Assembly (NCBI RefSeq): GCF_022808815.1
Contig: NZ_JAKZLC010000001.1
Span: forward strand, 1,152,249 to 1,216,248
Source: Geothrix paludis
Lineage (GTDB): Bacteria > Acidobacteriota > Holophagae > Holophagales > Holophagaceae
DNA: 64,000 nucleotides
Reading direction: 5' to 3'
The translations under genes and the position numbers were made by a program. Positions 54,405-61,240 of the stretch are shown here, in pieces (the stretch's first letter is position 1; each line of letters opens with the position of its first letter). The notes below the pieces were generated by a model that was given only the letters and a program-made list of their open reading frames with translations, had not been told where the DNA came from and made no database searches.

Positions 54405-54497
54405 AAGAAAAGACTGGAGCGCGAATCCGCCCTTCGCGTTCTTCTTTTCCCGTTTTCCGTTGCGTTCGCCAGCCCCCCTGGCCACACTTGGCACAGC

Positions 54498-54569
54498 ATG
54501 ATTCCTGTCGTGACCATCAACCCGCGCCCTAGCCACCCGATCACCGGCCGACCGGTTGGAGGGCTTTGA
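54498..54569 (+). CDS. Candidate proline-rich leader peptide of proBA
   Basis: A 23-codon ORF beginning MIPVVTINPRP has five proline codons (CCT, CCG, CCT, CCG, CCG at codons 3, 9, 11, 14 and 19) and ends 31 nt before an intrinsic terminator that itself precedes proB. This is the layout of ribosome-mediated amino-acid attenuation. A small hairpin (ACCGG/CCGGT, 54543-54556) falls within the ORF after most of the Pro codons. The weak point is the absence of a good Shine-Dalgarno sequence. It is too short for automatic annotation. Confidence 0.5.
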   Translation: MIPVVTINPRPSHPITGRPVGGL

Positions 54570-54599
54570 GCTAGTCACCACGACGATCCGCTCACATCC

Positions 54600-54636
54600 A
54601 CCCCCGGGCCGCACACCGACCCGGGGGTTTTTCTTT
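54600..54636 (+). terminator. Intrinsic terminator/attenuator upstream of proB
   Basis: ACCCCCGGG at 54600-54608 pairs perfectly with CCCGGGGGT at 54620-54628 around an 11-nt loop, followed by TTTTTCTTT. It lies 15-20 nt before the proB start codon, so it must be read through for expression. With the proline-rich ORF it forms a candidate attenuator. Confidence 0.8.
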
Positions 54637-54650
54637 ATGGGCAGCTATCC

Positions 54651-55511
54651 ATGACCCGCAGCACCCACTCCCTCGCCAGCACCGCCCAGCGGGCCAGCCT
54701 TGGCACGGCCAAGAGGATCGTCATCAAGCTCGGCACGCAGGTCGTGCTGGATGAGGAGGGAAGGCCTGCGCTCAGCCGGCTGTACGGATTGATGGAGACC
54801 GTGGCCAGTCTCCGCCGCCGGGGCGGCCAGCCCGTACTGGTCTCCTCCGGCGCCATCGGGCTGGGAGCCCGCCAGCTCGGCATCCACAAGCCGAAGGAAT
54901 TGCCCCAGAAGCAGGCCTGCGCGGCCGCGGGGCAGGGCCAGCTCATGTCCATCTACCAGGAGGGCTTCGCCCGCATGGGGCTCTGCGCCGCCCAGGTGCT
55001 GCTGACGGAGGATGACTTCGCGGATCCCCTCCGCCACGCCAACCTCCGGCGCACCCTGGACACCCTGCTGGAGCTGGGGGCCATCCCCGTGCTCAACGAG
55101 AACGACACGGTCTCCACCCTGGAGCTGGAGCGGCCGTCCCCTGGTCGCCGGCCCATCTTCAGCGACAACGACCACCTCTCCGCTCTGGTGGCCACGCACC
55201 TGGACGCCGATCTCCTGGTGCTCCTCTCGGACGTGAGCGCCCTCCACACCCGCAACCCGGGCCTGCACGCCGACGCCGAGCCCCTGGCGGAGGTCTCCTT
55301 CGGAGCCGATCCTCAGGCCAGGTTCGAGGGCACCTCGGGCCGCGGGCGGGGGGGCATGGTCAGCAAAGTGGAGGCCGCGCGGGCCGCGGCACGGGCCGGG
55401 GTGCCCGTGGTGCTGGCCTCAGGCCTCGCCATCGGCATCCTCGACCAGATCCTCGCGGGCGACCCCGTGGGCACCCTCTTCCTCGCCGGCCCTAGAGGAG
55501 CCCGGCCATGA
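54651..55511 (+). CDS. proB: Glutamate 5-kinase
   Basis: The protein has 286 residues. The amino-acid-kinase fold is clear: RIVIKLGTQVV at the start, LVSSGAIGLGARQLG, NENDTVST, FSDNDHLSALVATHLDADLLVLLSDV, and GRGRGGMVSKVEAA. It phosphorylates glutamate, the first step to proline. It lacks the C-terminal PUA domain of E. coli ProB (367 residues). Stop and proA start overlap (ATGA). Confidence 0.95.
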   Translation: MTRSTHSLASTAQRASLGTAKRIVIKLGTQVVLDEEGRPALSRLYGLMETVASLRRRGGQPVLVSSGAIGLGARQLGIHKPKELPQKQACAAAGQGQLMSIYQEGFARMGLCAAQVLLTEDDFADPLRHANLRRTLDTLLELGAIPVLNENDTVSTLELERPSPGRRPIFSDNDHLSALVATHLDADLLVLLSDVSALHTRNPGLHADAEPLAEVSFGADPQARFEGTSGRGRGGMVSKVEAARAAARAGVPVVLASGLAIGILDQILAGDPVGTLFLAGPRGARP

Positions 55512-56857
55512 CCGACGCGAGCCTCAGCCCCCTCCAGATCCAGGCCATGGCCCAGGCGGCCCGGGAGGCCTCCCGGCGCCTGGCCACCACGTCCGGCGCG
55601 CTCCGCTCGGCGGTGCTGCGGCGGCTGGCGGGCCTGCTGGAAGCCCAGGCGCCCGCCCTCCTCGCGGCCAATGCGGAAGATGTGGCCGCCGGAGGTGCCC
55701 TGCCCCCCGCCACCCTCCAGCGGCTCAAGCTGGACGACGCCAAGCTGGCGGCCATGGCCCAGGGCGTCGGGGCCGTGGCGGACCTGCCGGATCCCCTCCA
55801 CCGGGTGCAGCTTCACCGCGAGCTGGACGAGGGCCTGGAGCTCACCCGCGTGGCCTGCCCCCTGGGCGTGCTCTGCGTGGTGTTCGAGGCGCGCCCGGAT
55901 GCGCTGATCCAGATCAGCGCCCTGGCCCTCAAGAGCGGCAACGCCGTGCTGCTCAAGGGCGGCCGCGAGGCCGCGCGCTCCAATGCCGCGCTGCTGGCCG
56001 CGGTGCGGCAGGCGCTGGCGGAAGAGGGGCTGCCGGAGGACGCGGTCCAGGGCCTGCCGGATCGCGAGGCCGTGGCGGCCCTGCTGCAGCGGCCGGACCT
56101 GGTGGACCTCGTGATCCCCCGGGGCTCCCGGGAGCTGGTGCTGAGCCTCCAGGCCGCCACCCGCATCCCTGTGCTGGGCCACGCGGACGGCATCTGCCAC
56201 ATGTACCTCGACGCGGCCGCCGACACCGCCATGGCCGTGGCCCTGGTGCGCGACGCCAAGCTGCAGTACCCCGCCGCCTGCAACGCCGTGGAGACCGTCC
56301 TCATCCACCGCCGGGCCGCGGCCCGCCTGCTCCCGGCCCTGGTGGCGGACCTGGCGCCCCGCGGCGTGGAGCTGCGCGGCTGCGCCGCCTGCCGGGCGCT
56401 CGAGCCCGCCCTGGCGGAGGCCACGGACGCGGACTGGGACACCGAGTACGGCGCCCCCATCCTGGCCCTGAAGATCGTGGAGGATCTCGACGGGGCCCTG
56501 GCCCACATCCGCGCCCACGGCAGCGGCCACACGGAGGCGATCGTCACCGAGGATCACGCCGCCGCGTCGCGGTTCCTGGCGGAGGTGGACGCGGCGGGCG
56601 TGTTCCACAACGCCTCCACGCGCTTCGCCGACGGGTTCCGGTACGGCTTCGGCGCCGAGGTGGGCATCAGCACCGGGCGGATCCACGCCCGGGGCCCGGT
56701 GGGCCTGGAGGGCCTCCTCAGCTACCGCTACCTCCTGCTGGGCCACGGCCACAGGGTGGAGGACTACTCGGGGCCCGCCGCCCGGCCCTTCCGACACCGC
56801 GATCTGGGCGGCGATCTGGGCAATGATCCGGGCGGCGATCCAGACAGTGGGGTATAA
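55508..56857 (+). CDS. proA: Gamma-glutamyl phosphate reductase
   Basis: The protein has 449 residues, slightly longer than usual (about 415) because of a C-terminal tail with repeated GGD units (GGDLGNDPGGDPDSGV). The ALDH-fold motifs are LGVLCVVFEARPDALIQISALALKSGNAVLLKGG, the catalytic Cys in YPAACNAVETVL, and NASTRFADGFRYGFGAEVGISTGRIHARGPVGLEGL. It reduces gamma-glutamyl phosphate to glutamate semialdehyde. Translationally coupled to proB. Confidence 0.96.
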   Translation: MTDASLSPLQIQAMAQAAREASRRLATTSGALRSAVLRRLAGLLEAQAPALLAANAEDVAAGGALPPATLQRLKLDDAKLAAMAQGVGAVADLPDPLHRVQLHRELDEGLELTRVACPLGVLCVVFEARPDALIQISALALKSGNAVLLKGGREAARSNAALLAAVRQALAEEGLPEDAVQGLPDREAVAALLQRPDLVDLVIPRGSRELVLSLQAATRIPVLGHADGICHMYLDAAADTAMAVALVRDAKLQYPAACNAVETVLIHRRAAARLLPALVADLAPRGVELRGCAACRALEPALAEATDADWDTEYGAPILALKIVEDLDGALAHIRAHGSGHTEAIVTEDHAAASRFLAEVDAAGVFHNASTRFADGFRYGFGAEVGISTGRIHARGPVGLEGLLSYRYLLLGHGHRVEDYSGPAARPFRHRDLGGDLGNDPGGDPDSGV

Positions 56858-58432: not shown

Positions 58433-61240
58433 GTGTTCGACCTGAACGCCTTCGTCGAGAAGTTCAAGCTGGCGCGCCAGACGGCCCAGGAGACGCGGCC
58501 CGGCGGCGGTCTCTGCGGGCTGGAGCTGGAGTGGAACCTGGTGGATCCGCAGTTCCGCCCCCTGCTCACCGTGGGCACGGGACCGGACCGCATGTCCTTC
58601 GTGGACCACCTGCGGACGAAAGTACTGGCGCCCTGGACCGGGGAGTACCACCAGCTCGAGGTCTTCCACTGGATGATCGAGTGGGTCACCCGGCCCTACC
58701 ACACGCCCCGGGGCGCGGTGTACGAAGGCCGCCTGCTGGAGGCCGCCCTCATCAACGCCCTCTACAAGGCGGGCCGCGCCTTCGGGGAGCCCCTGCACTA
58801 CTGGCACGGGAACCTGCTCGTGCTGCCGGAGATCGGGCCCGACTGCGTGCCCGAGTCCTGGCACCTGGCCAAGCGGCGGTACCTGCAGCGCTGCGTGGAG
58901 ATGTACGGCACCGAGCTGGCCACCGCGGGCACGCACTGCAACCTCAGCCTGCCCGAGCCCATGCTGGCCTGGGACTTCATGCACCTGCCCGCCTCCCAGC
59001 GCGGCGACCACCACCTCGACGACTACAAGAACCAGGTCTACATCACGGGCACGCGGCTCATGCGGGCCTTCGCCGGGCTCTTCATCGCCACCAGCGCCAG
59101 CACGCCCCTCCAGGCCTCCGAAGAGGGCGGCAAGCCCGTGGTCCGCCTTACGCCCTACGAGTCCGTGCGGAACCTCACCTTCCCGAACCCGCCCGCCCTG
59201 GACGTGCCGGACCTGAACCGCAGCCACGCCGACTACCTGCGCCTGTCCTACGACCTAGTGCGCCGCGGTGTGCGCTTCGGCAACAACAACTGGATTCCCG
59301 TGCGCGCCCGCTCCCAGGCCGAGCCCGTGGAGCGCCTCATCCAGGTCACCAGCGACCAGCTCCATGACATCTACGCCCGGGGCCTCTTCGCCGCCGGCGA
59401 GACGCGCAATGTGGAGGACATGGCCGCGCAGATCGAGCGCCAGAACCTCTTCGCCCGCATCGACCTGCCCATGGCCCGCGTGGAGGTCCGCACGGACGAC
59501 CCCGGCCACGAACTGGCCCTGGACGTGGCGAACCTCACCCTCAAGCACCTGCTCCTCCTCCGCTTCTACGCCGATCCCGACTTCGCCCGCGGCTTCCGCT
59601 ATGACGCCGAGGACATCACCCGGGCCCGGCGCAACGAGGACCTGGCCGCCAAGGAAGGCCTCAACGCCGTCATCGAGGACCCCCTCACCGCCAAGCCCGT
59701 GGCCATGCGCGTGTTCCTGGCCTGGACGCTCAACCAGCTGCGGCCCCTGGCCGAGGCCCTGGGCTTCTGGGAGGACCTCCAGCCGCTCCGCGAGATGGCG
59801 GAGGGCGCGCCCAGCACCGCCGAGAAGATGCGCCAGAAGCTGAAGGCCAAGCTCGGCACCTCGGACATCGTGCCGCCGGCCCTGCTCGTGGAGCTGGCCG
59901 AGGCGCGGAAGGTCCAGGTACGGGACGAGGTGGAGGCCATCACCGCCCGCCTGGCGGACCTCGGGCCGGAGCAGGACAAGCTCAAGGACTTCGTGGAGCA
60001 CGCCCGGGACGAGGTGCATCTGGATCCCCGCGCCCCAGTGCGCTTCCGCCCCCGTCCCGAGGCCGTGGTGGAGGGGACCTTCGCGAGCAAGACCGCGGAG
60101 GTGCTGGCCGTGTCCCAGCGCCTCATCCGCATCCCCAGCGTCACCGCCTGCCCCGAGGAGCGCATGCCCGAGATCCACCGGGCGGCCACCTTCATCTACG
60201 ACTACTTGCGCAACCACGGCGTGCCCGTGCGCTACTTCAACCAGGCCACCTTCCCGGCCGTGCTCGCCCACTTCCCCGGCGGCGAGCAGGCCCCGGCCAT
60301 GCTGTGCGGCCACTTCGACGTGGTGGAGCCCGAGCCCGACGACAGTCAGTTCGAGCCGAAGATCGAAGGCGACTACCTCTGGGGCCGCGGCGCCGCGGAC
60401 ATGAAGACCGTGCTCTCCACCTACATGGTGTGGATGAAGGACACCTTCAAGAAGGGCGCGCCCTATCCGCCCGTGAGCCTGCTCATGCTCGGCAACGAGG
60501 AGAACGGCGAGCTGGAGCCCATGGGCACGCCCCACGTGCTGCGGCAGCTCAAGGAGGAGTGGGGCTACGAGCCCTCCTTCTTCGTGGCCGGCGAGCGCAC
60601 CGGCGAGAAGGGCACGGAGCTCTGGGGCGAGGTCTGCACCCAGAACCGCGGCGTCCTGCGCTTCGAGCTGGTGGCCCGGGGCACCCGCGGCCACAGCGGG
60701 CTGGCGGGGGGCAGCGACCTCACCGAGCGCCTCCTGGGCGCCCGCGAGGCCCTGCGCGAGATGTTCGCCAAGCGCCTCACCCTGAAGGCCGCGGATGGCT
60801 GGCAGTCCCTGGCCCGCTTCGCCTACATCCAGGTGGGCACGCCTGGCGTCTACAACATCACGCCGGATCGCGGCGCCCTGGGCGTGGAGATCCGCCCCAT
60901 CCCGCAGGACGACATCTCCGGTCTGCGCGCCGACATCGAGGCCCTGGCCGCGGCGCGGGAGCTGGAGCTGGTGCCCTCCGCCTGGGAGCCGGGCATCGCC
61001 TGCGATCCGGAGAACCCCTACCTCAAGGCCCTGCTGGCGGGCATCGAGGCCGCCGGCGGCGATGTCCGCATCGGCCGCAAGGGCGCCGGCACCTCCGCCC
61101 GCTTCGCCCCCAAGGGTCAGGGCGTGGTCTGGGGCCAGACCGGCATCGGCCCCCACGCCGCCGGCGAGCGCCACTACATCCCCAGCATCGACCCCTACTA
61201 CCGGGCCCTGGACGCCTTCGCGGCCAAGCTGAAGGGCTGA
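58433..61240 (+). CDS. Fusion of GCS2-like carboxylate-amine ligase and M20 metallopeptidase
   Basis: The protein has 935 residues. Residues about 1-430 resemble glutamate-cysteine ligase/carboxylate-amine ligases of the GCS2 superfamily: GLELEWNLVDP near 28-38 (compare GVEEEF.LVDP), WMIEWVTRP, GTHCNLSLPEP and the RVEVRTDD segment. After a helical linker (about 430-540) comes a complete M20 domain: H627 in CGHFDVV, D656 in GAADMK, E689/E690 in GNEENGE, and a lid domain with RGTRGHSGLAGG. One enzyme forms an amide bond using ATP; the other hydrolyses one. A protect-then-release role for an amino acid, or gamma-glutamyl peptide recycling, is inference. Start GTG at 58433; an upstream repeat precludes a longer protein. 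Confidence 0.8.
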   Translation: MFDLNAFVEKFKLARQTAQETRPGGGLCGLELEWNLVDPQFRPLLTVGTGPDRMSFVDHLRTKVLAPWTGEYHQLEVFHWMIEWVTRPYHTPRGAVYEGRLLEAALINALYKAGRAFGEPLHYWHGNLLVLPEIGPDCVPESWHLAKRRYLQRCVEMYGTELATAGTHCNLSLPEPMLAWDFMHLPASQRGDHHLDDYKNQVYITGTRLMRAFAGLFIATSASTPLQASEEGGKPVVRLTPYESVRNLTFPNPPALDVPDLNRSHADYLRLSYDLVRRGVRFGNNNWIPVRARSQAEPVERLIQVTSDQLHDIYARGLFAAGETRNVEDMAAQIERQNLFARIDLPMARVEVRTDDPGHELALDVANLTLKHLLLLRFYADPDFARGFRYDAEDITRARRNEDLAAKEGLNAVIEDPLTAKPVAMRVFLAWTLNQLRPLAEALGFWEDLQPLREMAEGAPSTAEKMRQKLKAKLGTSDIVPPALLVELAEARKVQVRDEVEAITARLADLGPEQDKLKDFVEHARDEVHLDPRAPVRFRPRPEAVVEGTFASKTAEVLAVSQRLIRIPSVTACPEERMPEIHRAATFIYDYLRNHGVPVRYFNQATFPAVLAHFPGGEQAPAMLCGHFDVVEPEPDDSQFEPKIEGDYLWGRGAADMKTVLSTYMVWMKDTFKKGAPYPPVSLLMLGNEENGELEPMGTPHVLRQLKEEWGYEPSFFVAGERTGEKGTELWGEVCTQNRGVLRFELVARGTRGHSGLAGGSDLTERLLGAREALREMFAKRLTLKAADGWQSLARFAYIQVGTPGVYNITPDRGALGVEIRPIPQDDISGLRADIEALAAARELELVPSAWEPGIACDPENPYLKALLAGIEAAGGDVRIGRKGAGTSARFAPKGQGVVWGQTGIGPHAAGERHYIPSIDPYYRALDAFAAKLKG

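Follow-up and report, generated by a model that had tools for sequence, protein, structure and literature searches.

In Geothrix paludis, a very small, proline-rich gene precedes proB and proA together with an RNA stop signal, and the two very probably turn the proline pathway on only at proline shortage. The window studied here is a stretch of 64,000 nucleotides (nt) of contig NZ_JAKZLC010000001.1, in which a short open reading frame (ORF) and an intrinsic terminator precede the two genes. We interpret this leader region as a ribosome-mediated transcription attenuator sensing charged tRNA-Pro, a reading to which we assign a probability of roughly 0.87. A sequence-only reading of the window had already proposed a proline attenuator before proBA. 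The proposal is now supported by the conservation of the arrangement in 26 of 26 loci, by a predicted antiterminator and by independent proline leaders at proC and at proB genes of a second order of the phylum.

Leader ORF and terminator upstream of proBA

The leader ORF comprises 23 codons, five of which encode proline (positions 3, 9, 11, 14 and 19). Its stop codon is separated by 31 nt from the 5' arm CCCCCGGG (54601) of a hairpin of the C5-G5 type (54601-54627), whose 9-bp stem ACCCCCGGG/CCCGGGGGT encloses the loop CCGCACACCGA and is followed by the tail TTTTTCTTT. The coordinates and counts that the sequence-only reading had given for these parts, with proB just beyond, were confirmed, as was its statement that ProB is devoid of a PUA domain: Pfam yielded AA_kinase alone (amino acids 21-256 of 286). 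The start of proA overlaps the end of proB by 4 nt, which indicates a single operon. The features of the region are as follows:

54498..54569, + strand: leader peptide ORF, MIPVVTINPRPSHPITGRPVGGL*, ATG to TGA, 23 codons (from the ORF list; 22-23 codons in 26 loci)
54519..54539, + strand: regulatory core NPRPSHP (Pro9, Pro11, Pro14), conserved; in some clades also strand 1 of a protector pairing
54549..54571, + strand: antiterminator strand (segment 2) by predicted pairing, GG-rich final codons and stop codon
54601..54636, + strand: intrinsic terminator, CCCCCGGG-loop-CCCGGGGG plus TTTTTCTTT, the 5' arm being segment 3 (present in 26 of 26 loci)
54651..55511, + strand: proB, glutamate 5-kinase without PUA domain (Pfam: AA_kinase only)
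55508..56857, + strand: proA, glutamate-5-semialdehyde dehydrogenase (Pfam: Aldedh)
54460..54465, + strand: -35-like hexamer TTGCGT of the putative leader promoter (recurrence in relatives)
54483..54488, + strand: -10-like hexamer CACACT of the putative leader promoter, 9 nt 5' of the leader ATG (recurrence in 26 loci)
54416..54442, + strand: terminator of the upstream decarboxylase gene, between that gene and the putative leader promoter (terminator scans)

A scan of the window for promoter and terminator consensus patterns listed neither the promoter of the proB leader nor the proB terminator, the latter because its loop is longer than the 8-nt limit of the scan. When wider loops were allowed, the scan of the 64 kb found the proB terminator and no other arrangement of short ORF, terminator and gene of equal quality. 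At the GC content of the window (0.686), at least five Pro codons occur in 24 of its 244 ORFs of 21-28 codons (10%). Therefore, the leader ORF taken by itself is not significant; its conservation is.

Conservation and predicted switch

For comparison, the leader region was extracted from 26 distinct proB loci of the same genus, with ProB identities down to 69-71%. The nearest named loci are those of Geothrix sp. SG200 and G. terrae, whose ProB is 94-95% identical; the leader also occurs in the cultured relative Geothrix fermentans (L005). All 26 loci retained both a leader ORF of 22-23 codons, 3-6 of which encode Pro, and a terminator with a C5-G5 stem (-12 to -24 kcal/mol) and a T-rich tail, the distance between leader stop and stem being 26-31 nt. 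Loss of the ORF or of its Pro codons beside a preserved terminator was not seen in this set. The core reads NPRPSHP or a close variant throughout. Codon conservation was counted over 21 non-redundant leaders, in which Pro11 was retained without exception, Pro9 in 20 and Pro14 in 14; the codons of Pro9 (CCT/CCC) and Pro11 (CCG/CCT) changed almost solely at third positions. The rare codon CCT accounts for 40 of 121 leader Pro codons (33%) versus 10 of 177 in six genes of the window. As the DNA 5' of the promoter revealed no visible homology among the more distant loci, the conservation of the leader region is local. Judged by the sequences, it is the conservation of ORF and terminator, not the number of Pro codons, that makes the arrangement more than a product of chance.

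The putative promoter shares this constancy. A -10-like box (CACACT, CACAAT or CAGACT) lies at an identical spacing of 9 nt to the ATG in all 26 loci and is preceded in nearly all relatives, at a distance of 17-18 nt, by a -35-like TTGCG, TTGCA or TTGTG, the flanking upstream DNA being different. Leaders of proC (see below) possess better -10 boxes (TATAGT, TATATT, TATGCT) approximately 7 nt before the ATG in nearly all of 14 cases. Given the usual distance of a start site from the -10 box, the spacing would leave a 5' untranslated region of 0-3 nt and no space for a Shine-Dalgarno site. By their promoter spacing, the mRNAs of the proB and proC leaders are probably leaderless or almost so. At pheA and asnB the -10-like boxes are located somewhat farther from the ATG; therefore, not every leader need be leaderless.

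To describe the switch, the probability of pairing between the terminator 5' arm and the end of the leader was predicted for different ribosome positions in the 26 loci. When the ribosome is held at Pro14, the C5 arm pairs with the final seven codons and the stop codon at a mean probability of 0.79 (at least 0.5 in 25 of the 26), and with a ribosome stalled at Pro9 or Pro11 the mean is 0.72. The value falls to 0.10 when the ribosome resides at the stop codon. Without a ribosome the mean is 0.43, and the window sequence itself gives 0.00. Shuffling of the sequence between codon 15 and the arm lowered the stalled-state pairing to 0.22, and each of the 26 loci lay above its own control (Wilcoxon p = 3e-8, which overstates independence, the sequences being related). 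Both features to which the sequence-only reading had pointed for relatives, conserved Pro codons and a competing antiterminator fold, were thus found upstream of proB, the fold as a prediction. In the window, the predicted antiterminator pairs are 54552-54555 with 54604-54607 and 54558-54559 with 54602-54603. The sequence UGAGC (54567-54571), which includes the stop codon, is predicted to pair with GCUCA (54590-54594); according to the model, a ribosome terminating at the leader stop would disrupt this pairing. A protector pairing (1:2) in the absence of translation is clear in the window sequence and in about half of the relatives and is weak or absent elsewhere.

We infer for the proB leader a promoter, a start site, translation, stalling and a response to proline, which would act together in the following way. 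With a transcription start at the leader AUG or no more than ~3 nt away, the ribosome would load at the 5' end of the emerging RNA. A shortage of prolyl-tRNA would make it stall at Pro codons 9, 11 and 14, the conserved ones, and the G-rich final codons would remain available for pairing with the C-rich arm on the 5' side of the terminator; this antiterminator would allow RNA polymerase to enter proBA. When prolyl-tRNA abounds, translation would proceed to the stop codon, where the ribosome would cover the G-rich codons, the terminator would form and transcription would end before proB. An RNA lacking a ribosome would, in the window sequence and in several further clades, pair its core codons with the G-rich segment, giving termination by default.

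Leaders in relatives and before other operons

The 26 leaders were used to build a covariance model (R1), with the terminator as its only structure, which was run against 93 genomes of the class. This survey of other leaders was partial, and matches weaker than E ~1e-4 were mostly not interpreted. The model found further loci in the same genomes; it matches other operons because C5-G5 terminators and similar leaders are common to them. Except for proB and proA, gene names were read from the protein sequences without a family search. The following leaders were recorded, the first five in the window's own genome:

G000:C7:55691-55831 (L115): proC leader MILILAIHPRPSTLRAGGSRMIG (Pro)
G000:C1:523837-523945 (L116): asnB leader MTFPSLRTNRNFNNPLPRANRAWAGEGLT (Asn)
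G000:C4:72688-72830 (L117): pheA leader MTASRAFFFSFRTSGARVGGV (Phe)
G000:C3:471804-471879 (L118): DAHP synthase leader MTPRFHRYYWFPRADRAWHGEGPA (Tyr/Trp/Phe)
G000:C1:875200-875229 (L161): ilvD leader MSPAVVRPVADLVAIPAVLIISGEVGAS (Val/Leu/Ile), from a terminator pattern search
In relatives: ilvA leader MTPSARLIPAAIAIISREGA (Ile)
In relatives: asnA leader MLKTSLTRQNNRNNANPSTDRAWGGEALV (Asn)
In relatives: hisG leader MTTFTFHHHHAHPPPPG (His)

The terminators of the proC, asnB, pheA and DAHP synthase leaders of this genome are situated 12-20 nt before the gene. A separate Pro leader ahead of proC was present in 14 of 14 proC leaders tabulated, with the core [HD]PRPST. Antiterminator predictions exceeded those for shuffled sequences at pheA, ilvD, ilvA, hisG and most proC leaders. 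They did not at the asnA, asnB and DAHP synthase leaders and the proC leader of G070, and the claim for these is therefore based on codons and terminator. The match between codons and pathway across operons amounts to a natural codon-swap experiment, and it is, at the level of sequence comparison, the strongest argument for the Pro codons as the sensor.

Proline leaders also vary in their placement. L077, from another genus of the family, has the proB leader MTSAAVRPASPRPSHLGAPERVPSA and a terminator, and in two genomes (L119, L120) proC and proB form one operon with the Pro leader 5' of proC. A second order of the phylum (G105) contributed six proB loci with a terminator. Five of them possess an ORF with 4-9 Pro whose end lies 28-35 nt upstream of the terminator; in the sixth the Pro count is only 2. 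For the leaders of this order, antiterminator pairing was 0.80-1.00 versus 0.10-0.29 for shuffles. Most other Acidobacteriota proB genes inspected showed no such leader. Near-complete genomes of the same genus without a credible ProB match were also encountered (G008, G010, G017, G020, G028, G029, G032). At least three of them (G008, G017, G028) keep the Pro leader before proC (L121, L123, L124). In such genomes proline may be made by a different route, or precursors may be imported.

One subclade (L057, L058, L059, L061, L063) has a proB-proA fusion, a single ORF of ~748-818 amino acids whose full sequence was read for L059; the fusion resembles eukaryotic P5C synthase and still has the Pro leader upstream. 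The asnB and DAHP synthase leaders L152, L154, L128, L118 and L151 share the C-terminal stretch PRANRAWAGEG or PRADRAWHGEG (DNA CGCGCGGATCGCGCGTGG), which suggests common descent of leaders for different amino acids or a shared RNA element. Other terminator-pattern matches, one of them before a carbamoyl-phosphate-synthase-like gene and several representing two-way terminators, were set aside as ordinary terminators. Elsewhere in the window (58433-61240), a 935-amino-acid ORF was noticed whose only Pfam match is an M20 peptidase domain (623-928). Its N-terminal 600 residues give the impression of a glutamate-cysteine-ligase-type enzyme, so that the ORF is possibly a fusion.

Some observations weigh against tRNA-Pro-dependent attenuation. 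The residues N, R, S and H between the Pro codons are conserved as well, which codon sensing alone would not need. Two relatives deviate at proB: L072 is without such a leader, and L073 (G073) has a Pro-rich 17-codon ORF (MLNLRPIPRPPFRPTGA) and no evident intrinsic terminator. Covariation of the antiterminator strand is modest, because G-rich and C-rich runs pair almost irrespective of detail (strand-swap permutation over 11 clades, p = 0.02), and in some clades pairing with the clade's own partner strand is no better than with those of others. The -10-like box of the proB leader is poor, and the consensus scan detected no sigma-70 site. Downstream of the L073 ORF, GGGCGGGC could pair with GCCCGCCC of that ORF, a hint at a translational or Rho-type variant.

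The conserved N, R, S and H beside the Pro residues would suit a regulatory nascent peptide, in which NPRPSH itself arrests the ribosome in response to free proline, the state of EF-P or another small molecule, tRNA charging being secondary and the same terminator switch following downstream; some relatives even carry NPPPSQP, a polyproline stall motif. However, the core varies (NPIPSQP, NPNPCPA, IQRPSHT) while number and position of Pro stay, the proC and second-order leaders have little in common beyond Pro, and at other operons the leader codons are those for the respective product, an argument for tRNA charging. We consider such a peptide unlikely. Direct sensing of proline or uncharged tRNA-Pro by a riboswitch or T-box appears more doubtful still. 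The core CGCCCTAGC is partly conserved at the nucleotide level, and T-box riboswitches control proBA-type operons in Bacillus, but the leader measures ~140 nt and its conservation follows the codon register. An Rfam scan of the window gave no family at the gathering threshold; among the matches up to E 5 there was no T-box in the leader and nothing credible for riboswitches. No Rfam match thus pointed to the specifier-loop stem I and T-box antiterminator motif of a T-box riboswitch.

Since at least five Pro codons occur in a tenth of the short window ORFs, the high GC content might have produced a Pro-rich ORF by chance next to an ordinary constitutive terminator or polarity element. Against this stands the conservation of frame, length, Pro codons and stop position over 26 loci with synonymous third-position changes, besides the independent Pro leaders at proC and in the second order. 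The chance explanation thereby appears largely refuted, and we give it hardly any credence. The same low probability applies to an action chiefly on proB translation or via Rho in place of intrinsic termination: L073, with its Pro-rich ORF and no clear terminator, indicates that such a variant may exist in one genus, whereas a strong intrinsic terminator with a T-run lies upstream of proB in the window and in relatives.

Relation to known attenuators

Attenuation by leader peptides is textbook knowledge; most known cases come from Proteobacteria and Actinobacteria, with some from Firmicutes. Like the classical trp, his, phe, thr and ilv attenuators, the Geothrix proB leader combines a short ORF rich in product codons and a terminator just before the operon with a competing antiterminator and a three-state switch, both predicted. 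It bears the leader ORF, the terminator and, as in silico predictions, the mutually exclusive folds that define this class. Unlike the classical attenuators of Enterobacteria, other Proteobacteria and some Actinobacteria, it is specific for proline at proline genes and belongs to the phylum Acidobacteriota; moreover, its mRNA is probably leaderless or nearly so, and the antiterminator strand overlaps the final codons and stop of the leader itself. With the proBA T-boxes of Bacillus it shares operon, signal (charging of tRNA-Pro) and output (antitermination), but T-box RNA binds the tRNA directly without translation, and no T-box model matched the Geothrix leader.

Pro-rich leader ORFs have been described in Salmonella, where low charged tRNA-Pro raises transcription downstream of mgtP (the mgtCBR leader) and of the mgtA-leader ORF, as demonstrated by replacement of Pro codons (PMC3641672). 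Those leaders govern Mg2+ transport and virulence genes, with a Shine-Dalgarno-like site upstream of mgtP, while the Geothrix leader precedes proB-proA. Leaderless leader ORFs have a precedent in trpL (peTrpL) of Sinorhizobium meliloti, whose ATG is the RNA 5' end and which is followed by transcription attenuation (PMC7298713). It belongs to an alphaproteobacterium and senses Trp; the leaderless start in Geothrix is suggested by promoter spacing. In a survey of Actinobacteria, the leader peptides or RNA elements found concern Trp, Leu, branched-chain amino acids and Cys, and proline and asparagine are not mentioned (PMC1262725); another survey noted that functions had been assigned to almost none of the attenuators predicted in Acidobacteria (PMC2965389).

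The sequence-only reading knew of no described proBA leader-peptide attenuator in Acidobacteria. In agreement with this, our literature search found no paper on a leader-peptide attenuator of proBA, proC or asnA/asnB, nor on such a switch in Acidobacteriota; subscription papers, including the Lopatovskaya 2010 attenuator survey, lay outside the search, and an earlier prediction is possible. Attenuation of this kind is an established mechanism, and what sets the Geothrix leader apart is the combination of its operon, amino acid, phylum and probable leaderless form.

The leaders would add proline and asparagine to the biosynthetic specificities of leader-peptide attenuation. At several operons the codons of the leader correspond to the pathway encoded downstream, so that they disclose the function, and the occurrence of Pro leaders at proB alone, proC alone and proC-proB offers comparative material on attenuators moving between operons. 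The data suggest that leaderless or near-leaderless leader ORFs are common in Holophagaceae. We think it rather likely that in this family, and probably in other Acidobacteriota, much of amino-acid biosynthesis is under a network of leaderless or near-leaderless leader-peptide attenuators, including those for proline (two unlinked leaders, at proBA and proC) and asparagine (asnA, asnB).
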